Virus record (IMG/VR): IMGVR_UViG_3300035034_001213
Span: 1 to 64,000 of that record
From: a virus
Direction: 5' to 3' (one strand)
Length of the DNA: 64,000 bases
In this document: in pieces, positions 2,999 through 60,543 of the stretch
Layout of the letters: every line of letters starts with the position of its first letter
Position numbering within the stretch: position 1 is the first letter of the stretch
The notes under the pieces: model-generated
The model's database searches: none
Told to the model about the DNA's origin: nothing
Seen by the model: the letters and a program-made list of their open reading frames with translations, nothing else
Program-made: the position numbers and the translations under genes

Positions 2999-3094
2999 GC
3001 TTGTGCTGAAATGACCACCCCATTGTATAGTGGCTGTTCCCAAACACCGGCTACTGGCCCACTAGATTTCTTTTGATCAAAGGAACCAAAAGGT

Positions 3095-41089: not shown

Positions 41090-41854
41090 TTATTTCGTTG
41101 ATTTAAAGAACGTCTCACCCATCCAACCGATAGGATCGTACTTGTGAAAACGCACGGCCCCAGGTTTCTCATGATGATTGGCGTGCCAACAGTCTCCTAG
41201 AACAAAAGGAAACATCAACACGCTGTTGTGCGGTTCGTCGATGTGGTCTCTACCCCAATTGTGACCCCAAGTATTGGCGAGTGATTGGAGCTGCCAAGTT
41301 AAGGCCACGGGCGCCCAAACTAATGCAAGGGCCCAGACCGGCGGCAATAGAAACAACGCCCCAAAGAAGATAGGGCCGTAGATGTGCCAGTAGTGATTGT
41401 GGAACCACACGTGCCACTTCGATCGAAGAAGTCGTCCTGCGTGTCGGCCGCTGACCTTACGAAACGTGTACCCCAACAACTGAACCGACAACCAATGACT
41501 CCTCGCTGGGCTGTGAGGGTCACCAGAGAGCCCCTGATGCTTGTGGTGAGCATTATGAGTCGCTACCCATCCGAGTGTACTCCCCTGAAGAGACAGGCCG
41601 CCTATGAAGGTCAAGAGCGCTTCTATTGGCCATGGGACGTTGACTGCGTTGTGAGTCAACACCCGATGGTACATGAAACTGATGCCCAACTGACTGATCA
41701 CGTACCCCAACAACAACGACACACCCAACGGGCCCCAGGCACCTTGGATCATCAGTGCCAGAATCGATAGGTGACACAGAACGATCATAGCGTAGTGCAT
41801 CACTCGGTTCATTGGCAGCGTTTCAATGTTCAGCGTTTGTAATAAGGTACTCAT
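41090..41854 (-). CDS. Membrane fatty-acid desaturase (lone copy)
   Basis: 254 residues with the three histidine boxes of acyl-CoA/lipid desaturases: HRVLTH, HNAHHKHQG with DPHSP after it, and HANHHEKP. GHNWGRDHIDEPHNS supplies the extra conserved His/Asn. Four hydrophobic stretches fit membrane helices around a di-iron site. Expected reaction: O2-dependent insertion of a double bond into a fatty acyl chain, needing host electron donors. It is 8 kb from the five-gene desaturase array and more diverged from them (HANHH rather than HNNHH). GAGGAAGCAGT precedes the ATG. Length is at the short end for the family. Confidence 0.85.
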   Translation of the reverse strand: MSTLLQTLNIETLPMNRVMHYAMIVLCHLSILALMIQGAWGPLGVSLLLGYVISQLGISFMYHRVLTHNAVNVPWPIEALLTFIGGLSLQGSTLGWVATHNAHHKHQGLSGDPHSPARSHWLSVQLLGYTFRKVSGRHAGRLLRSKWHVWFHNHYWHIYGPIFFGALFLLPPVWALALVWAPVALTWQLQSLANTWGHNWGRDHIDEPHNSVLMFPFVLGDCWHANHHEKPGAVRFHKYDPIGWMGETFFKSTK

Positions 41855-41881: not shown

Positions 41882-42778
41882 TTACAACACCGCAACGTTG
41901 TAGGCTTTCTCAAAGATCTTATCTAGATCGCCGTACCGATCCAGCTGTCGTTTTACGTTCGCCCGGATCTGAGTCACAAAGGCATCGTCCAGATGTTCAG
42001 AAACCATCATCGCTCGATTGTAATACATCCGGTAAGGTATCTGAATGAACAGTCGGTCGATTTTATCAATAGGTAACCATGGGGCTTTCTTACTTGAGAA
42101 ATCCGTGATGGTAGCGTGTAACATACGAACTTGATGTCGCATGCATTGCGACGACGAAAAGATTTCGCACATCACCTCTTCAGGCTTTACCAACATTCGA
42201 CCAAGCAACAGACCCTTCTTCAGATCGCCCATCACCCGATTGAGGTAATGTTTCGGCATACCGCGATCCAAACAGTCACCGCTCATGTAGTGACTCAGAA
42301 GCGTTTCACAGTTCAGGACGTCTCTTAAGACCGTCAGATTGAACACCACGGTACCCATAGAGAAATAGCTACGCGACCGCATGTAACGATCCAAGTACCT
42401 CGGGTCGTATTTAGGGTATGCCTTTCCCCAAGTTGTCAATTCAAACGGGCGATCTGGACGCATAACAACGGCCTGATCTTTAAGGTCCACGTTCGCAATG
42501 TCAAGAAGCGGTCTGTTACACAGAGTCGTCACATTAAACAAAACCATCACCGACTGATCGGTCTGGTTTAAAGCGTGGTCCAACGCCGATACTGAGTTAG
42601 CGTCATTTAACTGAATGTACTCCAGATCGGTGAACGCATTTTCGAGACGCTGACGAGTCAAGACGTCGTCGTAGAAAACCGTGAGAGTCCAACTCGGATT
42701 TTTTCGACGGTAGGTACTGATCGAAACAATCGCTTGATTGATACTTTCCCACGGAACCACAAATCCAGAGATGACCAT
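41882..42778 (-). CDS. Glycosyltransferase family 8-like protein
   Basis: 298 residues. SMGTVVFNLTVLRD matches the GT8 signature (F-N-S-G-v-x-x-x-N-L-x-x-x-R) and MLHATITDFSSKKAPW the terminal H-x-x-x-x-x-K-P-W motif. The usual DxD metal site seems replaced by VMVLFNVTTLC, so the enzyme is either diverged or inactive. I chose the ATG at 42778 because GGAGGAAC lies just upstream; a longer frame exists. It sits beside another transferase-like gene (42982) and near an extreme Ser/Thr-rich protein (44214), so virion or surface O-glycosylation is a reasonable guess. Confidence 0.5.
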   Translation of the reverse strand: MVISGFVVPWESINQAIVSISTYRRKNPSWTLTVFYDDVLTRQRLENAFTDLEYIQLNDANSVSALDHALNQTDQSVMVLFNVTTLCNRPLLDIANVDLKDQAVVMRPDRPFELTTWGKAYPKYDPRYLDRYMRSRSYFSMGTVVFNLTVLRDVLNCETLLSHYMSGDCLDRGMPKHYLNRVMGDLKKGLLLGRMLVKPEEVMCEIFSSSQCMRHQVRMLHATITDFSSKKAPWLPIDKIDRLFIQIPYRMYYNRAMMVSEHLDDAFVTQIRANVKRQLDRYGDLDKIFEKAYNVAVL

Positions 42779-42788
42779 AGTTCCTCCG

Positions 42789-43082
42789 TTAGAACGTTCG
42801 TTCACGTAGCTGAATTTTGAGATCAGTCGTGAAATCGGGTAATTCCGTTATACTCGGTCCCATGTCAAGACCTTTTTCAACCAACGACCTTAACTGCGGT
42901 GTCAGCAGGTTCACGTTAGGAGGCGTCGGCTCAAGCTTTGCAATTTCTGCACGCATTTGATCTACGGGCATTTCTGGATTATCAACGATCGTCTGAGGCA
43001 AAGGATGACTCGATTGCATCCACCCCCAATCCACCAAAACCGTCTGACTTGCCAGATCCAGATCTTTCACTTTGAATTTCAT
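42789..43082 (-). CDS. Hypothetical protein between two transferase genes (97 aa)
   Basis: Small soluble protein, Pro-rich in the middle (KLEPTPPNVNLLTPQ), unknown family. The ATG at 43082 follows GGAGCG. Its first 101 bases overlap the end of the gene at 42982 in another frame. Confidence 0.55.
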   Translation of the reverse strand: MKFKVKDLDLASQTVLVDWGWMQSSHPLPQTIVDNPEMPVDQMRAEIAKLEPTPPNVNLLTPQLRSLVEKGLDMGPSITELPDFTTDLKIQLRERTF

Positions 43083-43956
43083 AAGGCGCTCCAAGTCCTG
43101 ACTTACTTTCGTTAGAATACCGTTGTCGGTGCAGCGTGTCCATCACCTCTAAAACTTGATCCAGTTTGCTAGAGGGGTCGTTAACCCAAACGACCCCACT
43201 GTACGGACTGGCCAACAGACGACAGAGTGCTTCGTAAGGATCGGATTGAATTTTGATGACTTCGTACAACTGCCTATAGATGTTTCTGTTCACGCATTCG
43301 TGTTGGACGTCGATCAACCCTACTGGTTTTTTCATCAACTTACCAAGCAAACCTAGTTCGCTGGCGGACGTACAGTAAACGACCTCAGATCGCCTAAGCA
43401 GATCGTGGCCGCTGACATGATTCCCGTAGACCGCCTCTGGAAAACTCTGTTCGATGCGAATCAACCAATCGTCCAGAGTAATGGGGTGCGGTTTGATCTT
43501 AGCGCCTTTCTTATATAGTTCATACACAAAGTGCCAATCGACCGCATGTTCCAATAGATTAGACCCAGGGAGAAAAATGACCGCTGGGATAGACTCGGTA
43601 TCAAACTGAGGGATCAGTCGATACTTGTCCAAACGCTTGGATAACAGTTCGGTAGGATCGATTGGCGTTACGGTTTGATCGTTGACTCCGTTAATAACGG
43701 ACTCGTACCGCAACGCGTCGTCGCAGTGTGTGATCAACAACGCGTGAGAAAAAAGTTCGGTGTAATGAATGCTCTTGAACTTGGGGTCGTGACTGTAGTA
43801 AACGTCGTAGAGAACTTCCTTATCCGTTTTACGTTCTAACGCCGTTGATAGGTCCACTAAATCGTTCAACTGGTCCGATCGTCCCACCGTACCTGTTTTT
43901 TGAATCTTCGTATACCCATCCCCTAACCGATCGTCAGCAAAGTTAGGTCGTGTCAT
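42982..43956 (-). CDS. GT-B-like transferase, capsule-synthesis type
   Basis: 324 residues. IKPHPITLDDWLIRIEQSFP resembles the KPHP stretch of capsule (KpsC/KpsS-like) and glycerophosphotransferase-type enzymes, and LLRRSEVVYCTSASELGLLG, LMKKPVGLID resemble their S-x-x-x-x-E-x-x-x-x-x-K-P nucleotide-sugar end. I infer a sugar or polyol-phosphate transferase of GT-B fold. The last 45 residues (Ser/Gly-rich) look low-complexity and overlap the 97-residue gene. Acceptor and donor unknown. Confidence 0.5.
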   Translation of the reverse strand: MTRPNFADDRLGDGYTKIQKTGTVGRSDQLNDLVDLSTALERKTDKEVLYDVYYSHDPKFKSIHYTELFSHALLITHCDDALRYESVINGVNDQTVTPIDPTELLSKRLDKYRLIPQFDTESIPAVIFLPGSNLLEHAVDWHFVYELYKKGAKIKPHPITLDDWLIRIEQSFPEAVYGNHVSGHDLLRRSEVVYCTSASELGLLGKLMKKPVGLIDVQHECVNRNIYRQLYEVIKIQSDPYEALCRLLASPYSGVVWVNDPSSKLDQVLEVMDTLHRQRYSNESKSGLGAPYEIQSERSGSGKSDGFGGLGVDAIESSFASDDR

Positions 43957-43958
43957 AA

Positions 43959-44201
43959 CTAGCTTCCTTCGAGTACGTTCCCCTCAGTTGGGGTAATCCC
44001 ACACTTAGCCAGCTCGTCCTTAACTCTCGCTTCGATCCGAGCGTTCATGGTAGCTTCCAGCTGTTGCATGGTTTGTTCAAGTCGATTGTCGAACGTTGTC
44101 AAATGTTCAAGCAACGCGTCCGTTAAGGTCTCTGCTTTTGTAAGCGCTTGTGTCGCTCGCTCATGAACTGACTGTTCAGATTCATTCTCTATATCCGCCA
44201 T
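43959..44201 (-). CDS. Small coiled-coil protein (80 aa)
   Basis: Heptad-rich helix through most of its length (TKAETLTDALLEHLTTFDNR, LEQTMQQLEATMNARIEARV). The ATG at 44201 follows AGAGGAATTGACC. It lies just downstream of the Ser/Thr-rich gene and might be a chaperone or partner for it. Function unknown. Confidence 0.6.
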   Translation of the reverse strand: MADIENESEQSVHERATQALTKAETLTDALLEHLTTFDNRLEQTMQQLEATMNARIEARVKDELAKCGITPTEGNVLEGS

Positions 44202-44213
44202 GGTCAATTCCTC

Positions 44214-44927
44214 TTAGTAAGTATACGTTGTAAGTCTCAAACTGGTCCGCGTCGTGTTAAACGTGGTGTTGATATTAATCGTCGTTGTTGTGTTTCTAGA
44301 CATCGCAGTGTCTCTGGACGTCACTCGATCGGTTATCACTGACGTGGTAATGGTAGTACTGCGGTCAGTTGTTCTCGACGTGGGAACGCTTGTGATTCTC
44401 GACGTCGTTGCGGAGGTTGACCTTGATGTAGTTCGATTAAACCCAGCTGAAACGAGCGTACTGTAGGTCGTGGTTTCGGTGATAGTTCCGCCTTTGCTAT
44501 CGGTGTAACTTGTGCTTCTACTCGTCGTTCTGTACGTTGGGGGAACGGAGGTCGAGAACGACGTTGTGTAGGTTGTCGTAAATGCGGTTGAGTATGAGGA
44601 CGTGTACGAGGTCGTAAATTGTGTGTTTACCGTTGTGTCTCTGAGGGTTGAAAACGAGGTCGTAAACGAGGTCGCTGCCACCCACTCGGTGGTTGTAGTT
44701 TCTGAAACCGACGTTGATCTTGACGTGCTCTGAATAATCGGGACACTGGTGGTGATTGTCCTCTGATAGGTTACCCCGGCTAACATACTGAAGCTGATTG
44801 GGGCAACGCTTGGCAACGCAGGAAACCCACGCCCAAGTAAAGAGGACAATTGGTTACTACTCAGAGTCCCTTGAAACTCAGACACTACGTCGGAAAAGGT
44901 AATGGGGGGAAGTGCCGGTAGAGCCAT
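44214..44927 (-). CDS. Extreme Ser/Thr-rich fibrous protein (237 aa)
   Basis: Residues 1-50 are ordinary (LPPITFSDVVSEFQG, then LPSVAPISFSMLAG), a pattern seen in phage tail-associated proteins. From about 52 to the end more than half of residues are Ser or Thr, with regularly spaced Arg and aromatics. Residues 104-127 show a strict four-residue repeat, [F/Y]-[S/T]-[S/T]-[S/T/A], six times over; similar tetrads occur at 88-95. No transmembrane segment. I infer a fibrous, possibly O-glycosylated virion decoration. It is adjacent to the 785-residue tail fibre and to two transferase genes. Confidence 0.7.
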   Translation of the reverse strand: MALPALPPITFSDVVSEFQGTLSSNQLSSLLGRGFPALPSVAPISFSMLAGVTYQRTITTSVPIIQSTSRSTSVSETTTTEWVAATSFTTSFSTLRDTTVNTQFTTSYTSSYSTAFTTTYTTSFSTSVPPTYRTTSRSTSYTDSKGGTITETTTYSTLVSAGFNRTTSRSTSATTSRITSVPTSRTTDRSTTITTSVITDRVTSRDTAMSRNTTTTININTTFNTTRTSLRLTTYTY

Positions 44928-48181: not shown

Positions 48182-49057
48182 CTAAGGGGTAAGTGTGGGT
48201 AATTGGGAAGGATTGATGTCGCTGTTCAGAGCAAAGTCAGACACTGCGTTCTCATCAATCGCTCTGGATAGATCCCACGTGCTGAGGTCGTCTGTCATAC
48301 CGGTACTGTTGGCAAAGAATGAGTTTGCATTAGCGATGTTGGTGGTCGTCCAATGCGCCAGCCGCAAGGGTTCAACCAATGACGTCCCACGGAACATATT
48401 CGAGGCATCGGAAGCGGTTCTGAAATGAGGCTCGTCTGTGGCCGTGACGCTGAAGTTTCTCTTGGCGTCGAACGCGTTGGCCCAATTGTCCATAATGAAC
48501 TCAGCACCCCACGCCTCGATATCCACCAACCAATCTCGGTCGTCTATCAAGCTGCCGCTGGAGTCGTAAGAGCCTTCGGCAGTGCCTGTGACTCGAACTC
48601 GGTAACTCCCAGGCTCCTCGTACGTGTGTGAGGGTTTGGCGCCATTAACGAAATCCTCCATGCTACCGTCGCCCCACTTGATCGTACCGGTGAAGTTAAT
48701 AAAGCTTAACTCCACAGTAGCGTTCTCAGCATCGACCTTATCGGTCTTCACCAGCCAGACCATTGGATTGCCCAAGATACCGGTCATCAAAATAGCGGCA
48801 ATCTCACTGCGTCTCAACTCGCCCATCAATTCTGGGTTTGAGAAGAACTCGTCGGTGAACATCGATGGGTTGTCCCGTTTAGCTTGAAGTACTACCCACG
48901 CAAAAGCATCGCCTTCGTTTTGCGCTAAGGATAGAGCCGAATCAAGATTCGCTCGAGTAATAAGACCGTCAGCAAAATCGAGAACGGCCTGCTTGTAGGC
49001 ATCGATCGCTGAGTTCATCTCGGTACATTTAACGTTTACATCTGCCAGCGTTGCCAT
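48182..49057 (-). CDS. BspA-like/PKD-like adhesin or tail protein (291 aa)
   Basis: An N-terminal helical region (residues 1-95) is followed by a PKD-like strand stretch (GTIKWGDGSMEDFV, HTYEEPGSYRVRVTGT). A C-terminal part resembles BspA/DUF285 repeats (DASNMFRGTSLVEPLRLAHW, TTNIANANSFFANSTGMTDD then LSTWDLS), the M-F-x-x-x-x-x-x-x-x-L-x-x-W pattern. Such proteins bind surfaces, so I infer a fibre or adhesin. A truncated copy of its first 28 residues lies at 40848. Confidence 0.65.
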   Translation of the reverse strand: MATLADVNVKCTEMNSAIDAYKQAVLDFADGLITRANLDSALSLAQNEGDAFAWVVLQAKRDNPSMFTDEFFSNPELMGELRRSEIAAILMTGILGNPMVWLVKTDKVDAENATVELSFINFTGTIKWGDGSMEDFVNGAKPSHTYEEPGSYRVRVTGTAEGSYDSSGSLIDDRDWLVDIEAWGAEFIMDNWANAFDAKRNFSVTATDEPHFRTASDASNMFRGTSLVEPLRLAHWTTTNIANANSFFANSTGMTDDLSTWDLSRAIDENAVSDFALNSDINPSQLPTLTP

Positions 49058-49097: not shown

Positions 49098-49122
49098 TAA
49101 GAGGAGGCCCGAAGGCCTCCTC
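49098..49122 (-). terminator. Terminator ending the desaturase/radical SAM operon
   Basis: On the minus strand the stop codon of the last desaturase runs into GAGGAGGCC-TTCG-GGCCTCCTC, then TTATTCCC. On the plus strand the same hairpin is followed by TATTTTTT, so it may work in both directions. Confidence 0.75.
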
Positions 49123-49934
49123 TATTTTTTCGTCGCGGCTTTCAAAACATCGCTCAAATCGCAGGCGTCGTGGCCACGTCTAGGTTTCTTTATCAACCAA
49201 ATTACCCAAGCGGCTGGATCGATCTCCCACCATTTTATTTGCGTGTTCCAACGAGTTGGATACATGTGATGGTTGTTGTGCAGTCCATCGCCTAAAGTCA
49301 TTACGTGCATAAACCAACTGTTTCTACTTTCATCGGTTGTGTCGTAGTTACGGTACCCCCACTGATGTCCAGCAACATTGAACAGTCCTTTCAGATGAAA
49401 CATACACGCAGCCGGAATGCAGTATGCGTAAGCTGCGATCTTCCAATCAATCAAAGTCAGGACAAGGCTGAACATCAATAGAATAGGTACGTAGTATTTA
49501 TGCGTAAACTTGAAGAAGGGGTCTTTCAGTTCTTTCTTGATCAACCTGAGTTCAAGGTGCGGTACGTAATCGGTCCAGTCGCTGAACCACGACGTTAAAA
49601 CCCCTCGACCAACAGGACTGTGAGGGTCCTTCTCAGTGTCTGTGTGCTTATGATGCGATCGATGGACCAACGTGTTGGTCAACGGTGAGGCGATGGTGCA
49701 CAACATACCACAGAAGATTAGAAGATACCGAATAGGTGCGTAGGTCTCAAACGAGTTGTGGGCAAGCATGCGGTGGTAGCCTATCGTGACTCCTAAGAAT
49801 CCGTATGTTAAATAGGCGATCAACGAGACCTGAAGCCAAAACCACCAACCATTATACACTGCCGCAGAAATGAACGACAATGCTCCAATCTGCAACGCGA
49901 GCTGCAAGTACTTCAGTTGTCGAACTTCAGACAT
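49122..49934 (-). CDS. Membrane fatty-acid desaturase, array copy 5
   Basis: 270 residues with all iron ligands: HRMLAH, HRSHHKHTD with DPHSP, HNNHH, and GHQWGYRNYDT. Hydrophobic stretches fit four membrane helices. Reaction: introduction of a double bond into membrane or CoA/ACP-linked acyl chains. It is the last gene of the array and shares a 50-base identical run with the gene upstream, so the two are recent duplicates. The start has AGAAGACTAATG-type spacing after the preceding gene. Confidence 0.9.
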   Translation of the reverse strand: MSEVRQLKYLQLALQIGALSFISAAVYNGWWFWLQVSLIAYLTYGFLGVTIGYHRMLAHNSFETYAPIRYLLIFCGMLCTIASPLTNTLVHRSHHKHTDTEKDPHSPVGRGVLTSWFSDWTDYVPHLELRLIKKELKDPFFKFTHKYYVPILLMFSLVLTLIDWKIAAYAYCIPAACMFHLKGLFNVAGHQWGYRNYDTTDESRNSWFMHVMTLGDGLHNNHHMYPTRWNTQIKWWEIDPAAWVIWLIKKPRRGHDACDLSDVLKAATKK

Positions 49935-49946
49935 TAGTCTTCTCCA

Positions 49947-50705
49947 CTATGTCGGTTTTTTGATAAGCCAGATTATCCAAGCCGCTGGGTCTAGTTCCCA
50001 CCAGCGAATTTGAGTGTTCCAACGACCGGGGTATTTATGGTGGTTGTTGTGCCACCCGTCGCCGAACGACAATATGTGCATTGGCCAACAGTTGCGACTA
50101 TCCTCGTCAGTATCAAACGATCGATACCCCCAGGAGTGACCGAAGACGTTTGAAAACCCTTTGTAATGATAAAAGAACAAAGCCGGTACGCAGTACAAGT
50201 ACACAGCTACTTTCCAATCAACCAATGCCAGCATTACCACAAACAACAATAAGATTGTAGCGTAATGTTGATGCGTGAACTTAAAGAAGGGGTCTTTCAA
50301 CTCCTTTCTAGCGGTTCGAAGATCTAACTTCAAATCAATGCCCATCCAGTCTCCAAACCAAGTTCCTTTGTATCCCATTACGCTTGGACTGTGTGGGTCC
50401 CTAGCTCGGTCTGTGTGTTTGTGATGCGATCGGTGAACCAGTACGCCAGTCAACGGTGAGGATACCGAACACAGCATTCCACAGAAGATCAGCAGATACC
50501 GAATGGGAGCGTAGGTCTCAAACGAGTTGTGGGCAAGCATGCGGTGGTAGCCTATCGTCGTTCCAAGAACACCCACAACAAAATACACCAATAGTGCCCA
50601 ACCAAACCACGACCACATCTCTTGATAGATCCCATAAGGAATGGCCACAATCGCAATCGCGTGTGTGGCGATTTGAAAATATTTCAATTTGGTTGACGGT
50701 TGCAT
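49947..50705 (-). CDS. Membrane fatty-acid desaturase, array copy 4
   Basis: 252 residues. Boxes HRMLAH, HRSHHKHTD, HNNHH and GHSWGYRSFDT are intact. It is closely related to the copy at 49122 (identical at nucleotide level over 50509-50558 against 49739-49788). I placed the start at the ATG 50705 because GAGGTACTA precedes it and it overlaps the upstream stop as TAATG; a longer frame extends into the previous gene. Confidence 0.9.
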   Translation of the reverse strand: MQPSTKLKYFQIATHAIAIVAIPYGIYQEMWSWFGWALLVYFVVGVLGTTIGYHRMLAHNSFETYAPIRYLLIFCGMLCSVSSPLTGVLVHRSHHKHTDRARDPHSPSVMGYKGTWFGDWMGIDLKLDLRTARKELKDPFFKFTHQHYATILLLFVVMLALVDWKVAVYLYCVPALFFYHYKGFSNVFGHSWGYRSFDTDEDSRNCWPMHILSFGDGWHNNHHKYPGRWNTQIRWWELDPAAWIIWLIKKPT

Positions 50706-51463
50706 TAGTACCTCGGTTTCTTTATCAAACGGATAACGACGGTTGGAATATCGACTTCCCACCAACGATCCCAGTTGTTCCAGTCGTTAGGGCGTGCATG
50801 ATGATTGTTGTGAAATCCTTCACCGCCTAATAACCAAGACACTAGCAACGAGTTGACTGACGCATCGTCCGTATCGTAGTTTCGATAGCCCGACGTATGG
50901 ATCCACGCGTTTGCAAAACCAAAGAGGATTCTTAGTAATGCAATCGGTAGTGCATACGCAAACAAAAACAAACGCCAATCGATGACTAACAGCAACGCTA
51001 CCCAACTGTAGATGATCTTAAAGTACTGGCGGTGAAAGAACAACATGTCTGGATCTCGAGTCAGATCCCGTATCGAACGAGGCGAACACTTCGACGTATC
51101 CATACCGATCGAGAACCAGGCTCTGAAGAACCCCATTGTCTTAGGACTGTGTGGATCTCCAGGTTTATCTGGGTACATGTGATGGGTTCTGTGTACCATG
51201 GCCCAAGTGACTGGTGAACCAAGACACATCAATGTACCACAGAACAGTAGAAACCACCGAACCGGAGTGTACGTAACAAAGCTGCGGTGCGATACGTATC
51301 GATGAAAGCCAACCGCGTTACCAAAGACGCTGAGAGTCAAGTAAACTCCCAACGTCCACCACAGCCAATGCCATTGCTGACTGTGGATTAGGTAAGTAAC
51401 CGCGACTATTCCAAAGACCGCATTGAACATCGTCAGTATGTTCGACTTGCGAGCTTCAGTCAT
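50705..51463 (-). CDS. Membrane fatty-acid desaturase, array copy 3
   Basis: 252 residues. Boxes HRYVSH, HRTHHMYPD with DPHSP, and HNNHHARP are present. HRTHHMY lacks the last His of HxxHHxH, as in many acyl-CoA delta-9 desaturases, so it is probably active. The GHxWG motif has become IHTSGYRNYDT. The start is the ATG at 51463 after TAGGAGAACCTCT. Coupled by TAATG to the next gene. Confidence 0.9.
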   Translation of the reverse strand: MTEARKSNILTMFNAVFGIVAVTYLIHSQQWHWLWWTLGVYLTLSVFGNAVGFHRYVSHRSFVTYTPVRWFLLFCGTLMCLGSPVTWAMVHRTHHMYPDKPGDPHSPKTMGFFRAWFSIGMDTSKCSPRSIRDLTRDPDMLFFHRQYFKIIYSWVALLLVIDWRLFLFAYALPIALLRILFGFANAWIHTSGYRNYDTDDASVNSLLVSWLLGGEGFHNNHHARPNDWNNWDRWWEVDIPTVVIRLIKKPRY

Positions 51464-51473
51464 AGAGGTTCTC

Positions 51474-52271
51474 CTAGGCGGTTCTGTGTTTGGGCAAAGG
51501 ATGACCACGATGATGAATCAACTTAATGACCTGAGCCGGAATGTCCCATTCCCACCAACGTTCACGTGTATTCCACCGCGACGGATGCGCGTGATGATTG
51601 TTATGCCAACCTTCACCCATGGTCATGACGTTAGCGATCCAACTGTTCAAGCTGGTGTCGCCTTCCAACTGATGGTTACGATACCCATGAAGATGTGGGA
51701 TGACCACGATACCGCTGGCGCTGTGTAATGACAACACGGCCGGTAAAGCGTAGACGAAAGCTACCCCTTGCCAACCCAAGGTCAGGAACAGCAAGAGCGT
51801 CCAACCTGCCAACACATGGAAGTAGTAGTTATGCGTCCAGATGTATAAGGGATCCCGTCTCATCGTCTTCGAGACTCGACCAGCTTGTCGAAATCCTGAA
51901 GTATTCCAAGCACCGAACCATGCTTTCAATGGTCCTATGGCGTGTGGACTGTGCGGGTCGTGTTCACCATCCGTGTGAATGTGGTGGATGCGATGCACAA
52001 TGGACCAGGCCATCGGAGAACCCACGGTAGTGATGATGCCACAGAACATCAAAACGTATTCAACCGGTCGGTATGTCTTAAACGCCCCGTGCGCTAAGAA
52101 ACGATGAAACCCAACATTGATTCCTAGGATACCGATTACCCAATAGGTCAACCATGCGGTCAACAACCACATCCATTCACCCATGTAGATCGCCCAGCCC
52201 ACTGCAGGAATGGCAATTAGATGCGTGACTACTTGGAGCAGTCGTACACCGTTGTTGTGTGTCAATTTCAT
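51474..52271 (-). CDS. Membrane fatty-acid desaturase, array copy 2
   Basis: 265 residues. Boxes HRFLAH, HRIHHIHTD with DPHSP, and HNNHHAHP. The fourth conserved site reads IPHLHGYRNHQ. Its sequence is distinct from copies 3-5, so the array is not a simple recent expansion. GAGAGGGTAGTA precedes the ATG. Confidence 0.9.
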   Translation of the reverse strand: MKLTHNNGVRLLQVVTHLIAIPAVGWAIYMGEWMWLLTAWLTYWVIGILGINVGFHRFLAHGAFKTYRPVEYVLMFCGIITTVGSPMAWSIVHRIHHIHTDGEHDPHSPHAIGPLKAWFGAWNTSGFRQAGRVSKTMRRDPLYIWTHNYYFHVLAGWTLLLFLTLGWQGVAFVYALPAVLSLHSASGIVVIPHLHGYRNHQLEGDTSLNSWIANVMTMGEGWHNNHHAHPSRWNTRERWWEWDIPAQVIKLIHHRGHPLPKHRTA

Positions 52272-52273
52272 TA

Positions 52274-53035
52274 CTACCCTCTCTTCTTGATAAGTCGAAT
52301 AAACATTGCGGTAGGATCAAGTTCCCACCATCTATGTTGAAGATTCCATTGACTGGGAAACGTGTGATGGTTGTTGTGCCACCCTTCGCCAACCGATAAG
52401 ATGTTGCAAAGCCAGCTGTTCTTTGAATGATCGTTATCTGGGTAGTTTTGATACCCCCAAGAATGACTCATAATCGATAGACAGAAGCCTACTACGAACG
52501 AATGCAGCGCCGCTGGAACGATGTACACGGCCAGAAGCCACTCAGGCCCTCCGAACAATAACAGTCCAAGACCATAAAGCGCATTCAATAAAAAATAATG
52601 CGTGTGAACCCAAAACATGATCGGATCACGAACCACGTCTCTGACGGAAACCCGCCGGTCTTGCATGTCGACGTATTTCAAACACAGAAGCGCTTTCCAG
52701 AAACCCATGTGACGATGACAATGTGGGTCCTTAGGCGTCTCGGTATAACGATGATGAACTCGATGCATCCAGGCCCAACTGATGGGAGTTCCCATCGCCA
52801 AAGGCACACTCATCAACGCCATGATCAATTCAATGGGTCGGTACGTCTTGTAGCTTCGATGCGAAACGTATCGATGCATGTACGCGTTGAACCCAATGCA
52901 TTGTTGAACACAATAGACACCGAGGGTTACCCAGAGCAACTCAGGGAAGGCCACCGCCAAGTAGATAACACTTGGAATAAACGCTAACCATAACCCGTTT
53001 CTAAAGACGTTCAATCGTTGTACGCTATACTCCAT
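52274..53035 (-). CDS. Membrane fatty-acid desaturase, array copy 1
   Basis: 253 residues. Boxes HRYVSH, HRVHHRYTE with DPHCH, HNNHHTFP, and SHSWGYQNYPD. HRVHHRY is the delta-9-type second box. It is the first desaturase downstream of the ketoacyl synthase gene and overlaps it by 11 bases, tying the array to fatty-acid synthesis. TAGGAGTCACCAG precedes the ATG. Confidence 0.9.
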   Translation of the reverse strand: MEYSVQRLNVFRNGLWLAFIPSVIYLAVAFPELLWVTLGVYCVQQCIGFNAYMHRYVSHRSYKTYRPIELIMALMSVPLAMGTPISWAWMHRVHHRYTETPKDPHCHRHMGFWKALLCLKYVDMQDRRVSVRDVVRDPIMFWVHTHYFLLNALYGLGLLLFGGPEWLLAVYIVPAALHSFVVGFCLSIMSHSWGYQNYPDNDHSKNSWLCNILSVGEGWHNNHHTFPSQWNLQHRWWELDPTAMFIRLIKKRG

Positions 53036-54221
53036 ATCTGGTGACTCCTAAAACACTGTTCAATCCACCAAAGCCAAATGCGTTCTTGATAAACGAATTG
53101 ACTGGACCAGTAACTTGGTGTTTGGGAAGGTTAATCGGTTTTATGTCGGGGTCAGCTTCGAATTTACCGTTTGAGATGATAAACTCATACTTCATTTGAT
53201 ACAAGCTGTAGATCAACTCAATAATGCCAGACGCCGTGAGGGTGTGACCAATCAAACGTTTAAACGCAACGACTGGAATCTCATTGCCAATCACGTTTGA
53301 GATTGCTTCTGCTTCAACGACATCGCCATTAGGGGTTGAGGTCGCGTGTGCTGAGATGAAATCCGGACGGTGTCCCAACATAGCCATCTTACCTAAAACC
53401 TCAGACATGGACGCTGAGGCCCCCTCACCGGAAGGGTTCGTCATGTCTTCGCCGTCTGAATAATCAGCGTAGGCTATAGGCTGACCATACGCTTTAGTAC
53501 CACCACGTTGACGGAAGTATTCTTCCGATTCGAGAATAACACACCCGCCACCTTCACCATGTGTAAACCCACCACGATGTTTGACAAACGGCACACTGGC
53601 GTACGCTAGGTCGTCGCCTCGATAGAGTGCTCTCATGGCATCAAAGCCACGCATACCCTCATCGATGTATTTTTCAGTACTTACACAAATAACCACATCT
53701 GCACGACCAAGTTCGATCAGATCCATACCTTGGGTCACCGCGCGTAGTCCTGTAGCACACGCGTGTTGCACTGTGTGCGTTGGGCCTTTCAACTTAAGAA
53801 CGGTAGAGAGAGGTCCAGTTACAACCGTCGGAAGAGTCTTCATGAGATCAAACGGTTTGACCCGTGGGAAGTCCTTCTGAACAATACTACGCATGGAAGG
53901 CATGTCGCCAGCACCGCTGCCTGAGCACAAGGCTACTCGTCGAGTATTTATGTCGTCTAAACACAACCCCGCGTCCGCTAATGCGTCTAGTACTACTGCG
54001 TAGGAGATGTTTAAATGATCCATTTGATAACTACGAGGAATCCCGGGCGCCAGTAACCGTGAGTCGTCAATGCATTTGGAAACACTGCTCGCCTTGTTCC
54101 TGGGATCGTTACTTTCGTACCGTTGGATCGAAACTGTCTCTTGTTTCAGATTGCCAACAATTTCTCCCTCCCAACGTCCAATTGAGGTAATACACCCCAC
54201 ACCCGTTATTACACAACTCAT
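53025..54221 (-). CDS. Beta-ketoacyl-ACP synthase (KAS I/II, FabB/FabF type)
   Basis: 398 residues, normal for the thiolase-fold condensing enzymes. The full active site is present: Cys155 in QHACATGLRAV, His292 in SAHATSTPNGD, and Lys321/His326 in FKRLIGHTLTASG; the terminal AFGFGGLNSVLG loop is also intact. It should condense acyl-thioesters with malonyl-ACP, extending host fatty acids by two carbons. Diverged N-terminal half. It sits between the oxygenase/radical SAM genes and five desaturases. AGGACATCGGT precedes the ATG. Confidence 0.9.
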   Translation of the reverse strand: MSCVITGVGCITSIGRWEGEIVGNLKQETVSIQRYESNDPRNKASSVSKCIDDSRLLAPGIPRSYQMDHLNISYAVVLDALADAGLCLDDINTRRVALCSGSGAGDMPSMRSIVQKDFPRVKPFDLMKTLPTVVTGPLSTVLKLKGPTHTVQHACATGLRAVTQGMDLIELGRADVVICVSTEKYIDEGMRGFDAMRALYRGDDLAYASVPFVKHRGGFTHGEGGGCVILESEEYFRQRGGTKAYGQPIAYADYSDGEDMTNPSGEGASASMSEVLGKMAMLGHRPDFISAHATSTPNGDVVEAEAISNVIGNEIPVVAFKRLIGHTLTASGIIELIYSLYQMKYEFIISNGKFEADPDIKPINLPKHQVTGPVNSFIKNAFGFGGLNSVLGVTRYGV

Positions 54222-55947: not shown

Positions 55948-56357
55948 GCGGCCTCCGCCATACACTCGTCTTTGAAATATTGGACCGTGAAATCCACCCA
56001 CCGACCTTTTAGGGGAATGTTCTCAATGCCCCCTAAGGCCTCCAATATGATGTCGTACGATTCCTTGTCTTGGGTGTAGGGTACAAAGTATTCATCAGTT
56101 CCGTATAAAAGCATGGGGTCGTTTAAGACCTCATAGAACGGTTCGTTGAAGTGTTCCCAAAGTAACCGAGAATAAATCAAAGCAACCGCGTATGACTTTC
56201 CTGGATAAACCGATTCTTCCCGAGGGTCTAACAAATACTCCAAAGCCGGACCTACGACGTCTTCTCGATCAATGATCGTCTCAAAGTTTTCGACAGCGTC
56301 GGTGTGGACTTGGGTCATAAGGTGATATAGCTTCTGATTGGCTTTCCATTCTTTCAT
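55932..56357 (-). CDS. Hypothetical protein between oxygenase and radical SAM genes (141 aa)
   Basis: Helical, acidic, aromatic-rich protein with no recognised family. It overlaps the radical SAM gene upstream by four bases (ATGA) and the oxygenase gene downstream by 16, so it is translationally coupled to both. A small partner protein, such as a substrate-recognition element, would fit; nothing in the sequence proves it. Confidence 0.6.
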   Translation of the reverse strand: MKEWKANQKLYHLMTQVHTDAVENFETIIDREDVVGPALEYLLDPREESVYPGKSYAVALIYSRLLWEHFNEPFYEVLNDPMLLYGTDEYFVPYTQDKESYDIILEALGGIENIPLKGRWVDFTVQYFKDECMAEAACFKI

Positions 56358-57442
56358 GAAGCACGCCGCTCCCAGTTAAACTCTTCACGCATCTCCCTTG
56401 CGGTTGAAATACAGTGTTCGGAGTCGGTAATGGTCATCACTTTCTGGACTCCCCGCTCAGCGCACTTGGCAATGAACTCACACCCGTCACAGATGCCGTT
56501 GGTTTGCGCCAACGACAGACACTCGATCATACCGTCCTCTTCTTGACGAAAGATGTTCTCGAAGGTCCAGGGACCGTCCACTCGATGCTCCGGTTCAAAG
56601 GAGGAGAAGGCTTCCACAATGAACGGAGGCACAAACATCTCACCGTTGCGGTACACCACGTCCCAGTCTTCCCCTTCGTTCATCTGCAACTCAACGATTT
56701 CGAAATGTTCCTGACGCTCGTTCGCAGCCATCCGTGACTGGATAAGCAACCGGTTTAGGTGTTCAAGACTGGACAGGAAATTTTCTTGATTGACGGGATC
56801 TCTGAGGCTCTCTCGACCGTGAGGAAGAATGAAATCGCTGTGCGACGTCGGATGGAGATTGACGTGGTACGCTCGAGTAAGGATGTCCTTAGTCAGAGTG
56901 AAGCCGCGTTTATGATCGTTGGCGATCGACTCCTCAAAGTTAACGACGCTGTAGACTCGAGTGATCTTAACGGTACTTAAGCAGCTTTCGAAATACGCCA
57001 CCCTGTTACGAATGCCTTCGATGTACGCTGGGTTGTCAATGTGACGCACCTCAAACGGCACCGTAAACTTCAGAAGACCGTTAGGAATCAACGCTTCGAC
57101 TTGTTCCGCCAACTTTTCATAGACCTCAGGTTTCGGATCTAGGAACGCACAGTTCAAGGTGGTCTTGAGAAACCGCTGAGCAATCTGCTTGATCCTCGGG
57201 TGTTCCAAGATCAAGTTTTTGTTCTCGGAGCTGAGGATGTCTGTGGGACCCAAGATAAAGTTGAGGACCTCCAACTCAGCGGTTTCAAAGGTATCGATCA
57301 TTCGATCAATGCGATCAAACTCTTCAAGGGTTGGGAATCGATTGTCTTCTTTCTCAACCATACATCCCGAACAATTGTGTCGACAGCCACTTGCGATTTC
57401 CATAGTGAAGTCGATTAACTTATTAACTTGTGACTTGTGCAT
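56354..57442 (-). CDS. Radical SAM enzyme, non-GGEP pair member A
   Basis: 362 residues. The [4Fe-4S]-SAM motif is CRHNCSGC (Cys20, 24, 27). Instead of the usual G-G-E motif it has ILGPTDILS, also seen as APVDIMS in the next gene. The C-terminal region has CDGCEFIAKCAERGVQKVM and a last EHC, a SPASM/twitch-like cluster site. I chose the ATG at 57442 with GGTGA upstream. It is a clear paralogue of 57447, with matched LNCAFLDPKP and VPFEVRHIDNP blocks. Probably modifies a peptide or protein. Confidence 0.85.
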   Translation of the reverse strand: MHKSQVNKLIDFTMEIASGCRHNCSGCMVEKEDNRFPTLEEFDRIDRMIDTFETAELEVLNFILGPTDILSSENKNLILEHPRIKQIAQRFLKTTLNCAFLDPKPEVYEKLAEQVEALIPNGLLKFTVPFEVRHIDNPAYIEGIRNRVAYFESCLSTVKITRVYSVVNFEESIANDHKRGFTLTKDILTRAYHVNLHPTSHSDFILPHGRESLRDPVNQENFLSSLEHLNRLLIQSRMAANERQEHFEIVELQMNEGEDWDVVYRNGEMFVPPFIVEAFSSFEPEHRVDGPWTFENIFRQEEDGMIECLSLAQTNGICDGCEFIAKCAERGVQKVMTITDSEHCISTAREMREEFNWERRAS

Positions 57443-57446
57443 AATT

Positions 57447-58502
57447 TCACCAACTGCATTTATAGCTGAGTTTACCGAGCACCGACAAACACTCATGCGT
57501 TCCTAATAACCTCTGTACTCGATGTACCCCTCGAGTTGCGCACTTGCTGACAAACCGACACCGAGAACATTCGTTAGATTCACCAGCACGGGTGATGGAT
57601 TCGAAAAAGGTCTCTTGATCGGCCTGTTGGATCTTGTCAAGTGTCCAGGGTTTCTTGAATTTGAAGTCGTCGTGAAAAATGGTGATCGGACTGTTAATAA
57701 GGGGGGCTATATACAGGTCGCCATTGCGATACGCCAGATGATAATCGCACCCAACGTGCTCACCCAGATCGTCGATCTTAAACTCGTACCCTTTGTCCAC
57801 CTGATTGGCAAACATTTCGTTTTGCTTCAAGATGGTTCTTAAGAACTCTTCTCGGTCTTCGTTAACCGACAGGTCACGGCGGCCGTAATGAAACACAAAC
57901 GTGGTGGTGTCTGACTTTTCAAACAACTCGATGTGTCGGGTCTTATGGAGCGTCTCTTCACTGACAACGCCTTTGTCCATCAGCGACTCGGTCATATTCA
58001 CGATCGCGGTAACACTCCCGATCCCCACCGACTTCAGATTTTCATTCAACCAGTTGATGCGACCCCGGAGCTTTTCAACGTACCCCAAGTTGTCGTGATG
58101 CTTTAATTCGAAGGGTACCAGAAACTCCGCGTTCAACCCTGGCATAAACGCCTCGAGCTCTTCAGCAAACTGAACGTACGCGTCCGGATCGGGGTTCAAG
58201 AAGGAGCAGTTGAACACCACCGACTTAAACCCTTTTAACATCTTTCGAACCGCAGGGTGAGTTAATACGTCTTGTCGATTGCTGGCGGACATGATGTCTA
58301 CCGGTGCAAACTCCATCCAAGACATCTCCCATCCACGACTGCGTACGTCGTCAATAATCTCACTGAGCGCTGCGAGATCGGCTTCTGTGTATGGGGTAAT
58401 GTCTTTGGTGTTAACGCTGCACCCAGAACACCCGTAGTCACAGTCTTTTAACAACTCCAGCGCTAGATTGCCGATGTTGTCCCCTCGAACCATGGTTGTC
58501 AT
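57447..58502 (-). CDS. Radical SAM enzyme, non-GGEP pair member B
   Basis: 351 residues. CDYGCSGC (Cys21, 25, 28) is the SAM-cluster motif, with FAPVDIMS in the GGE position. FNCSFLNPDP and VPFELKHHDNLGYVEKLRGR align with member A. The C terminus has CSRCRFVSKCATRGVHRVQR and HEC, a cysteine pattern for at least one auxiliary cluster. Overlaps the neighbouring radical SAM gene by four bases. Confidence 0.85.
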   Translation of the reverse strand: MTTMVRGDNIGNLALELLKDCDYGCSGCSVNTKDITPYTEADLAALSEIIDDVRSRGWEMSWMEFAPVDIMSASNRQDVLTHPAVRKMLKGFKSVVFNCSFLNPDPDAYVQFAEELEAFMPGLNAEFLVPFELKHHDNLGYVEKLRGRINWLNENLKSVGIGSVTAIVNMTESLMDKGVVSEETLHKTRHIELFEKSDTTTFVFHYGRRDLSVNEDREEFLRTILKQNEMFANQVDKGYEFKIDDLGEHVGCDYHLAYRNGDLYIAPLINSPITIFHDDFKFKKPWTLDKIQQADQETFFESITRAGESNECSRCRFVSKCATRGVHRVQRLLGTHECLSVLGKLSYKCSW

Positions 58503-59443
58503 TGCGATTCAGCCCATTTTAACAAATGTAGAAACCCGTTGCACGAGTGCGTCGTATCGGTGACTTTACGAAGATGTTCAGACAAACACTTACCGGCGTA
58601 GTCACATTCCGAACACTTGGAATCAAGTACCTTGAGCTTCTCTCCTGCACACCAACCAAAGTATTCCTCGATACTGTCCAACTCCAAAAAGTATTCGTTG
58701 TCTTGTTCATCAAAGTCCAAGACGCCGAACTTCCCAGTTGGGGTGATGTAGACGTGGTCGTCGGAGAACGAATGTCCCCGACCTTCCAAACAATCTTGTA
58801 TGTTCAACGCGTTCACAAAATCAAACTTCATCTTATCTTGGCGCTTGTACAACACCTTGATAAACGCCTCGTAGTCGTGATAACTCACCGGCAGTTGATT
58901 GGCTTGATTAGGACTGTACGGCTTGATCTCTACCGACGTGAGATTTGACAACAGGTTTAACGTGTTGATGATCTCATCTGGGTCTTTCGCCATTACTTCG
59001 GGAGTAGCCAACATCAAAATCGAAAAGTCGCGTTCCATTTTTAACATCTGCTGAAAGACGTGGTCGTGCTTTTCTCGAGCCTCAAAGTCGTAGCTCACTG
59101 AGATGCCCCAGCTCACGTCGTGGACCGCAGGATTGTTCATGGATAGATTGGTGATGATGTTAAGATCGTCAATCCCACGATCGTGTAACCCGTCCTTCAG
59201 TGCGCCGATGTATTCCGGTGGCAACAACAAAGGTTCGCCACCGTACAGATCCACCATCTCTACCTTCCGGTGAATCATTACCTCATCGATCCGATCAAAC
59301 AACCGATGCAACGTCAAGCGCTTCTTGTCGCCGAGTTGTTCTGACGTGAGATAACAAAACCCACATCGGAAATTACAGAAGTACGAAGGATTAATGCTAA
59401 GATTAATCGGAATCTCAGGTAACGTCAAAGAGTTTGAGTTCAT
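58499..59443 (-). CDS. Radical SAM enzyme with SPASM-like C terminus
   Basis: 314 residues. CNFRCGFC (Cys23, 27, 30) and DLYGGEPLLL are the canonical radical SAM motifs. A C-terminal CSECDYAGKCLSEH, with nearby WCAGE and HSCNGF, is a short SPASM/twitch-type cluster site. Such enzymes commonly modify ribosomal peptides or proteins. I chose the ATG at 59443, with GAGAGT upstream, over the one at 59455. Confidence 0.85.
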   Translation of the reverse strand: MNSNSLTLPEIPINLSINPSYFCNFRCGFCYLTSEQLGDKKRLTLHRLFDRIDEVMIHRKVEMVDLYGGEPLLLPPEYIGALKDGLHDRGIDDLNIITNLSMNNPAVHDVSWGISVSYDFEAREKHDHVFQQMLKMERDFSILMLATPEVMAKDPDEIINTLNLLSNLTSVEIKPYSPNQANQLPVSYHDYEAFIKVLYKRQDKMKFDFVNALNIQDCLEGRGHSFSDDHVYITPTGKFGVLDFDEQDNEYFLELDSIEEYFGWCAGEKLKVLDSKCSECDYAGKCLSEHLRKVTDTTHSCNGFLHLLKWAESQ

Positions 59444-60506
59444 CGTTACTCTCATCTACGTAGGGGGTGGGAATCAATTGCCCAGTCAATCCATTGGCCT
59501 CGATGATCTCTGGGGCAAGAGCTTTCATCTTACGACAGTGCTCTTCAACACGACCTGTCTTTTTAGCGTCGCGTATGCTCTTCTTACACCCATTGCATAT
59601 AGAGAACATTGGACAGAAGAAACAGTCTTTCTTCAGACTTTGCAGTTCATAGACTTGAAGCGGCAGTTTCATCTCCCCTTCCATCTCCTCGTTAAAGTCG
59701 ATGGGGTATTCTCGATCGTCCCCAAACGACCCACAAGAATAATAGCCACCATTGGGTTGCATGGTGCGAATACCAGAGTCGCAGTTACGAGACAAAGGAC
59801 AAGCGTCAGAACCTTTGGCTAAAACTTGAAGCATCTGCTTAGTGCTGTACTCCCAGGGTGCCAGACCTTCCCGCCACACCGCCAAATACGCTTTGTACAT
59901 ATCGGCGACTAAGAAATGTTGATCTTCACTGCCCATGGTGCCTTTACGGGTTTGTATTACCGGACCCGAAGCGTTGGTGTAGTTGATCTTACATTCCACA
60001 TCCATCGCTTTGGCTAAACGTACTGTCTTCACCACATCGTCGACGTTCGTTTCATCGATTACTGAGATGAACGATGGGCGATACCCCACCAGCTCCAACA
60101 TGAGGTCTGAGACGGCCCAGAACTCCTCTTCGGTGAAAGGGGTATAATCACCCTTCAAACGCTTGTTACCGTACTGGAAGCTCGTAGCAACGCCCACACG
60201 AGGGTGTTTGAACAACTCCAGCCACATCTGAGGTTTCTTGTAGAACGGCCAGAGGTTGGTCGTCAGTGAAATGGACGTGTGGGGCATATCCAACTCATCC
60301 AGAATCTCAATCATTTCCCAGTAGTACGACACGGGCATCATAAGGGGATCGCCGCCGTTGATGATGATCGTATCGGTTTGTGGGAATCGTTGAAGAAACC
60401 GTTTGATGTCCGGAAGCTCAACGATGTCGTTGCTGTCCTCAGCGATGTCGGTGCTTGAGCAGAAGGTGCACTTAAAGTTACACTTCTCAGTTGGCTTAAT
60501 TATCAA
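59415..60506 (-). CDS. Radical SAM enzyme with full SPASM domain
   Basis: 363 residues. CNFKCTFC (Cys9, 13, 16) and IIINGGDPLM give the core. The C-terminal half has CPLSRNCDSG, GGYYSCGSFGDD, and CFFCPMFSICNGCKKSI...EEHC, the spacing of a SPASM domain with two auxiliary clusters, as in peptide-modifying maturases. The only conventional start in frame is TTG at 60506; GGAGGG lies 13 bases further up, so the true start may be different. The motif begins unusually close to the N terminus. Confidence 0.85.
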   Translation of the reverse strand: MIIKPTEKCNFKCTFCSSTDIAEDSNDIVELPDIKRFLQRFPQTDTIIINGGDPLMMPVSYYWEMIEILDELDMPHTSISLTTNLWPFYKKPQMWLELFKHPRVGVATSFQYGNKRLKGDYTPFTEEEFWAVSDLMLELVGYRPSFISVIDETNVDDVVKTVRLAKAMDVECKINYTNASGPVIQTRKGTMGSEDQHFLVADMYKAYLAVWREGLAPWEYSTKQMLQVLAKGSDACPLSRNCDSGIRTMQPNGGYYSCGSFGDDREYPIDFNEEMEGEMKLPLQVYELQSLKKDCFFCPMFSICNGCKKSIRDAKKTGRVEEHCRKMKALAPEIIEANGLTGQLIPTPYVDESNDELKLFDVT

Positions 60507-60543
60507 ATCGATTTTACTACCCTCCTAGCCGTTAAGGGCTCGT

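Follow-up and report, generated by a model that had tools for sequence, protein, structure and literature searches.

A Ser/Thr-rich protein with a four-residue repeat and a putative glycosyltransferase are encoded side by side in unrelated phages. We examined this pair in a 64,000-nucleotide stretch of viral DNA, referred to as the window (positions 1 to 64,000 of IMG/VR record IMGVR_UViG_3300035034_001213, which has 73,033 bases). The repeat protein, STR (Ser/Thr-rich tetrapeptide-repeat protein), and the transferase-like protein, HPT (named for its HP motif), belong to one operon downstream of a tail fibre gene. On balance, we favor the view that STR is a tail-associated, mucin-like fibre which is O-glycosylated by its own transferase, HPT. 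A wider claim is tentative and, in our estimate, possible but doubtful: that such proteins form a widespread class of phage mucins, tail-associated rods to which a new HP-motif family of protein glycosyltransferases (GTs) adds ulosonic acids activated by cytidine monophosphate (CMP), either 3-deoxy-D-manno-octulosonic acid (Kdo) or nonulosonic acids, in unrelated lineages.

A tetrapeptide repeat maintained at the protein level

Residues 52-237 of STR contain 66 Thr and 33 Ser in 186 positions, or 53% Ser/Thr. A preliminary description of the gene had reported that Ser/Thr dominates the last ~185 residues, and this was confirmed. It had also pointed to a sixfold [F/Y]-[S/T]-[S/T]-[S/T/A] repeat at residues 104-127. 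Indeed, this segment, FTTSYTSSYSTAFTTTYTTSFSTS, consists of six exact [FY][ST][ST][STA] units, and none of 200,000 composition-preserving shuffles of the repeat region reproduced such a run. The run was correctly described, but its limits were too narrow, since all of residues 52-237 is four-periodic: bulky residues recur at lag 4 with z=6.2 (0 of 20,000 shuffles), at lag 8 with z=5.3 and, at lag 12, with z=3.9; they are under-represented at lags 1-3 and 5-7. The strictly aromatic character claimed for the repeat holds for the 24-residue run only; elsewhere it does not, Arg being the most frequent residue at the non-Ser/Thr position of the STR units (11 Arg, 6 Phe, 5 Tyr).

The repeat region draws on each of the four Thr and six Ser codons, and Tandem Repeats Finder reported a single array in the gene, 12 bp × 1.9. 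This mixture of codons, together with so trivial an array, indicates that the pattern is maintained at the protein level and is not a microsatellite. One could still regard STR as a low-complexity linker without a function of its own, retained by drift or slippage, and the lengths of STRs do vary greatly (open reading frames [ORFs] of 170-1835 aa), with a shorter repeat region in the ortholog from contig L328. However, unrelated phages share the four-residue period with its X-[S/T]-T-[S/T] pattern, the window gene has varied codons and lacks a long tandem array in its DNA, and HPT is specifically linked to STR, as described below. The linker explanation therefore seems to us most improbable.

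The 559 units of 16 STRs give the consensus X-[T/S]-T-[S/T]. Units were selected as Ser/Thr-rich, hence only the split between positions carries information: Thr occupies 82% of third positions, the bulky position varies (Arg, Trp, Tyr, Phe, Val, Gln, Asn), and the Ser/Thr triad is constant. Constant Ser/Thr with a free fourth residue fits a repetitive acceptor, unlike a packed hydrophobic core. This bears on another possibility, that STR is an unmodified β-structured or extended fibre whose period comes from packing, and that the targets of HPT are surface glycans of the host or DNA. A regular period of 4 would bring the bulky residues of an extended strand onto a single face, and known phage GTs, according to a review passage, modify host serotype or phage DNA (PMC12619734). 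But a variable bulky position is not what a packed core would show, and the genes to which HPT is linked are STR and those of the tail rather than any for DNA modification or lysogeny. We consider an unmodified fibre quite unlikely.

Pfam, PHROGs, tblastn against phages and a viral contig scan returned no homologues of STR. Because of low-complexity filtering, such searches are uninformative for this protein, and we therefore took HPT as the anchor.

HPT accompanies STR in unrelated phages

For an HPT-first test, viral contigs fetched by HPT sequence were combined with phage records into 29 clusters at 80% identity; the 26 with at least 1.5 kb of upstream sequence were counted. A same-strand ORF of at least 100 aa with at least 33% Ser/Thr lies directly upstream of HPT in 21 of the 26 clusters (22 by a relaxed rule); L128/L114, counted among the 21, had first come to notice by way of a repeat pattern, so that the unbiased figure is 20 of 25, and the queries were mostly HPTs from STR loci, which possibly favored near relatives. 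None of the 278 other gene-like ORFs of the same loci is Ser/Thr-rich by this definition. Four clusters fall outside the relaxed rule. L288 and L296 encode look-alike proteins with 31-33% Ser/Thr; Cr30 and L326 are real exceptions, and the 116-aa neighbor in Cr30 is Tyr/Thr-rich and not four-periodic.

The converse, STR-first test started from T.[FY].(x4)T written as a DNA pattern, which is blind to HPT, and matches were kept if the ORF was Ser/Thr-rich. Among the matches listed, at least 20 loci have a locally Ser/Thr-rich ORF at the match, two of these being short chance matches. When whole records were searched, HPT was present in 13 of the 18 STR contigs among the matches listed, versus 0 of 49 control contigs holding other pattern matches (a set that leaves out L178, itself an STR contig). 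In L207/G005 and L262/G008, HPT is on the contig but beside another fibre-type protein. An earlier DNA pattern, seven Thr at period 4, was discarded; nearly all of its matches were chance or poly-Thr, with two real STRs. As a test of its proposal, the preliminary description had called for a search for homologues near GT genes, and both searches bear out such linkage.

Relatives of HPT were found in 28 phage records, from Vibrio KVP40-type phages, Caulobacter phage Cr30, the T7-like Lullwater/BL199 group and Stenotrophomonas phage DLP_6. The pair itself occurs in phiKZ-like jumbo phages (the window and L328), KVP40-type Straboviridae, T7-like Caulobacter phages and the siphovirus-like contig L114. 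In KVP40 the order is Ser/Thr tetrapeptide protein, a 72-aa coiled-coil-like gene (.0255) and HPT; in Lullwater and BL199 it is tail fibre, Ser/Thr tetrapeptide protein and HPT, the last two being gp41 and gp42 of Lullwater. The period-4 signal is equally strong in the Ser/Thr proteins of all three. The window shows the same features, a period-4 Ser/Thr-rich protein with HPT two genes downstream on the same strand.

Orthologs of the window genes are found in L328, a 222-kb contig with a PhiKZ_MCP match of 4e-186. Its order is S74-like fibre, desaturase, STR, coiled-coil-like gene (5760-5989), HPT and homologues of the window genes at 42789-43094 and 41882-42805; the S74-like C-terminus of the fibre frame was recognized by eye. 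The L328 STR (170 aa) is 43% identical to that of the window, with the pattern FSDV..EFQ.TL..N..S.LLGRGFP conserved in the head, and HPT identity to the window is 51% in L328 and 42% in L325. In L325, STR is followed by a 57-aa coil-like gene, HPT and a GT8-like gene. A 57-aa heptad-like gene also precedes HPT in DLP_6; for all these short genes the likeness is one of position and look only.

We asked whether STR shares an N-terminal domain with the proteins of the KVP40/L176 type and rejected the idea: a hidden Markov model of seven such domains gave E=3.4 against the window. The window STR head is common only to L328, Lullwater likewise lacks the KVP40/L176-type domain, and this domain is no general feature of the STR-HPT module.

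Some STR genes are hard to recognize in existing records. In Vibrio phage K575 (L274, OZ196514.1), the STR frame at ~3402-3958 is open yet unannotated, the called genes being short ORFs in other frames. In Vibrio phage phi-pp2 (L279, JN849462.1), STR (3064-3594) is labelled "cell wall mannoprotein", a name borrowed from yeast Tir proteins and evidently prompted by the Ser/Thr composition; PVA8 and PC-Liy1 use the same name.

Two gene families flank HPT elsewhere. One, whose proteins of ~250-290 aa begin with a sequence resembling MxxLxIAxHHGxxLTxxS, comes immediately after HPT in several phages (L284 7269-8141, L285 7658-8413, L286 7264-8127, L004 2696-3448) and has no relevant Pfam match. The other, a small four-Cys zinc-ribbon-like gene (L131 4763-4960 and equivalents; weak PF19668), is a regular neighbor of HPT in marine T4-like contigs.

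Sub-threshold resemblance of HPT to CMP-sugar transferases

Among 25-26 aligned members, D51, K111, G131, N133, K155, H157, P158 and E200 of HPT are invariant. The motifs KPHP and SE are fixed, and H157-P158 is present in 26 of 26. All 26 aligned HPTs, that of the window included, match phrog_26179. Beyond this, PF05159 Capsule_synth matched one of the 26 members at 0.006, below the cut-off; PF07388 polysialyltransferase matched three members at a sub-threshold 0.034; and the best PDB profile match was KpsC, also sub-threshold (E=0.25-0.85), with the K-x-HP and a later S...GKP segment collinear in the alignment. β-Kdo GTs such as KpsC-type enzymes have the HP motif in common with CMP-sialic-acid GTs (PMC10148158), in which it binds the CMP donor (PMC2169525). 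Motifs and sub-threshold matches converge, suggesting that HPT is a CMP-sugar transferase akin to KpsC, Capsule_synth and polysialyltransferase, and the motifs hint at the type of donor sugar. No Maf family was among the Pfam or NCBIfam matches of HPT.

Two scans by pattern, of limited sensitivity and covering 84,980 bacterial genomes, gave no confirmed HPT. The HPT alignment A1 is too divergent to serve as a search pattern, and a pattern search with the window HPT alone found no relatives.

The invariant KPHP and SE also recall the H and E motifs of a different chemistry. CDP-glycerol glycerophosphotransferases have similar H and E motifs, and STR might be an acceptor of phosphate, polyol or sulfate, with HPT a CDP-polyol or other HP/E-type transferase. 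In L128, the gene at 6884-7708 after HPT has a sulfotransferase-like N-terminus by eye (LNSMGKAGTHLVKN), but Pfam, PHROGs and PDB gave this resemblance no support, and we dropped it. The sub-threshold matches of HPT are to Kdo and sialic acid enzymes, and we find a nonsugar modification very unlikely.

The second transferase-like gene

The GT8-like gene has homologues in the same operon of L328 (43% identity) and L325 (25-27%). A direct Pfam scan of the window protein gave no match. When the three proteins were compared by hhalign with the GT8 of L326 (PF01501, 4e-17), the probability was 98.4 and E=5.6e-15, and the joint alignment with L326 included matches the PDB GT8 WbbM at 4e-8. The case for GT8 homology, which runs by transitivity through L326 only, is good. 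At two places where L326 has MDTDTL and IVHFLSLFKPW, the window protein reads FNVTTL and ITDFSSKKAPW. We rejected KVP40.0257 as a homologue, since only 42 C-terminal residues align, at probability 6.

The operon and its place in the tail region

The genes are all on the minus strand in the order S74 tail fibre, STR, coiled-coil-like gene, HPT and GT8-like gene (Table 1). The fibre protein matches tail fibre PHROGs down to 1e-19. The short gene between STR and HPT has heptad-like counterparts in the same slot of KVP40, L325 and L328.

Table 1. Features of the STR-HPT region in the window
Feature	Coordinates	Strand	Basis
GT8-like glycosyltransferase homologue, 307 aa, DxD lost	41882..42805	minus	profile comparison via L326 GT8
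Conserved 101-aa gene overlapping the HPT 3' end	42789..43094	minus	same-place homologue in L328 (6852-7148), by eye
HPT, putative HP-motif CMP-sugar-type glycosyltransferase, 324 aa	42982..43956	minus	conserved motifs, sub-threshold matches
82-aa coiled-coil-like gene between STR and HPT	43959..44207	minus	likeness by position and look only
STR, Ser/Thr-rich tetrapeptide-repeat protein, ATG start, 237 aa	44214..44927	minus	translation, periodicity, L328 ortholog
Tetrapeptide-repeat region of STR, residues 52-237, X-[S/T]-T-[S/T]	44217..44774	minus	lag-4 periodicity
Six perfect [FY][ST][ST][STA] units, STR residues 104-127	44547..44618	minus	shuffle test
Nonrepetitive conserved head of STR, N-terminal 56 residues, probable docking domain	44760..44927	minus	strongest conservation versus L328
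Tail fibre protein upstream of STR, 785 aa	44971..47328	minus	PF22337 Phage_fiber_rpt 1.8e-8; PF13884 Peptidase_S74 chaperone 4.3e-8

Three T4-like contigs speak to where STR resides. An ORF whose start resembles a baseplate-wedge protein contains the STR region of L207 and of L253; the STR region of L243 comes after a Baseplate_wedge gene (PF23786). These fusions and this adjacency, along with the S74 fibre gene upstream of STR in the window, point to the tail or baseplate, and STR is probably a virion protein associated with one of them.

Proposed mechanism and its alternatives

We propose that a mucin-like rod, built of X-[S/T]-T-[S/T] units, would make up STR beyond a short N-terminal head. 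HPT would act in the cytoplasm as a dedicated GT-B glycosyltransferase of the HP-motif type, probably with a CMP-activated sugar taken from the host: either CMP-Kdo or a CMP-nonulosonic acid, for example that of pseudaminic acid. Gram-negative hosts make CMP-Kdo. The sugar would be placed on Ser/Thr of STR before assembly, most likely on the predominant third-position Thr, and the role of the GT8-like protein may be to lengthen the glycan or to assist as a noncatalytic partner. The product would be a stiff hydrophilic glyco-fibre that could serve for reversible adhesion to the cell envelope or for shielding of the tail. Sugar genes near HPT in other phages favor this mechanism: L326 (250 kb, PhiKZ_MCP 2e-171) has HPT, then a true GT8, then a GT2 (PF00535, 3e-7), and L290 has STR, HPT and a nucleoside diphosphate-sugar dehydratase (PF16363, 1e-55). 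The preliminary description had suggested a mucin-like glycosylated fibre, and the linkage of homologues to HPT supports this in part.

Several results weigh against glycosylation of STR by HPT. Curated cut-offs in Pfam or NCBIfam were reached by no HPT match. HPT also has no conserved columns corresponding to the D/E-D/E-G motif of HP-motif sialyltransferases, D51 and D/E67 being the only conserved acids in its N-terminal half, and for this reason we do not assign it to the GT38/52/80 sialyltransferase or β-Kdo families. Both of the transferase-like genes that the preliminary description placed just downstream of STR exist, one with good GT8 homology and HPT with convergent, sub-threshold evidence; the GT8-like protein, however, has lost the metal ligands, both DxD and the C-terminal His, and so may not be a working enzyme. 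Pro, which is frequent in animal mucins, is scarce in the 559 tetrapeptide units. Five of the 18 STR contigs among the matches listed, all of them fragments, show no HPT.

Finally, HPT follows fibre-type proteins that are not tetrapeptide STRs in Cr30, DLP_6, L285, L286 and L326, so STR is not the sole possible partner of HPT. This keeps alive the alternative that HPT glycosylates mainly the tail fibre or some other protein of the tail and that STR is a co-assembled spacer in the fibre operon. A fibre gene is found upstream in many of the loci, and marine T4-like contigs have a tail-fibre-assembly-like gene between STR and HPT. However, a Ser/Thr-rich neighbor in 21 of 26 clusters is beyond what a fibre alone would lead one to expect, the composition being absent from all 278 other ORFs, and fibre types vary among phages while STR composition and HPT persist. 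We judge a fibre acceptor unlikely, if worth keeping in mind, and prefer STR as the candidate acceptor.

Relation to known systems

Glycosylation of phage virions is already known, and the STR-HPT module would be a new form of it. In the literature searched, mostly without subscription papers, we found no description of the module; we did find capsid and tail glycosylation of mycobacteriophages. Che8, Rita and relatives, as cited in PMC11256854 and PMC12619734, carry capsid and tail glycans for which phage transferases are held responsible. The likeness is that phage-encoded transferases are held to glycosylate virion proteins, there capsid and tail tube. In those phages the acceptors are the C-termini of capsid and tail-tube proteins, and the Maravista GT genes are near the genome end; in the window, by contrast, the candidate acceptor is a repetitive protein of a fibre operon, with an adjacent transferase apparently of another kind.

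Flagellin modification offers a second parallel. Maf enzymes attach nonulosonic acid or Kdo to flagellin Ser/Thr (PMC11339370), and Caulobacter flagellins are O-glycosylated by the cytoplasmic FlmG (PMC7591256); both resemble our proposal in cytoplasmic transfer of a CMP-ulosonic acid onto Ser/Thr of an extracellular filament protein. Unlike these systems, HPT has no detectable Maf match, and its proposed acceptor is a phage repeat protein, not flagellin. The KpsC/WbbB β-Kdo transferases and the GT38, GT52 and GT80 sialyltransferases share the invariant HP motif (KPHP) with HPT, and KpsC also aligns with the downstream S...GKP segment. HPT differs from these HP-motif GT-B enzymes in lacking D/E-D/E-G and a significant family match, and in that its proposed acceptor is a protein rather than a polysaccharide.

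Among phage proteins, KVP40.0254 (phrog_30374), whose group is annotated as "hypothetical" or "cell wall mannoprotein", is most like STR, with the same operon order of Ser/Thr tetrapeptides, coiled-coil-like gene and HPT. It differs in an N-terminal domain without demonstrable homology and in a second downstream gene that is only weakly similar. The gp54 protein of mycobacteriophage Tweety also has four-residue repeats, but these are Ala-Ala-x-x repeats from a 12-bp DNA repeat in a temperate-phage setting (PMC2884959), and we set it aside as unrelated.

If our proposal is correct, very different lineages (phiKZ-like, KVP40-type, T7-like and siphovirus-like) would decorate a tail protein with sugar through a shared two-gene cassette, whose genes annotators label hypothetical or overlook. 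It would give a function to phrog_26179 and define a family of protein O-glycosyltransferases fitted to simple repeat acceptors, and phage adhesion or shielding could depend on a glycan made from host CMP-sugars. Since the pair occurs in culturable laboratory phages of Caulobacter crescentus (Lullwater, host strain CB15) and Vibrio (KVP40), this is directly testable.

Other features of the window

The window comes from a phiKZ-like jumbo phage: the product of the ORF at 3095-5251 has a Pfam match to the PhiKZ major capsid protein (1e-185). Upstream of STR within the same tail region, 48182-49057 (minus strand) encodes a 291-aa protein with PKD-like and DUF285-like segments. Six fatty-acid desaturase genes (PF00487, 4e-19 to 1e-11) are on the minus strand at 41090-41854, 49122-49934, 49947-50765, 50705-51508, 51474-52271 and 52274-53035; five of them are consecutive, beside a β-ketoacyl synthase at 53025-54221 (PF00109, 2e-25). 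In L328, a desaturase gene is likewise found between fibre and STR. Together, the desaturases and the synthase are a large lipid-modifying set for a phage. Further along, 56354-61602 (minus strand) holds five consecutive radical-SAM-like genes with Cys-rich N-termini; the one at 58499-59455 matches PF04055 at 9e-10, and two others tested had no Pfam match.
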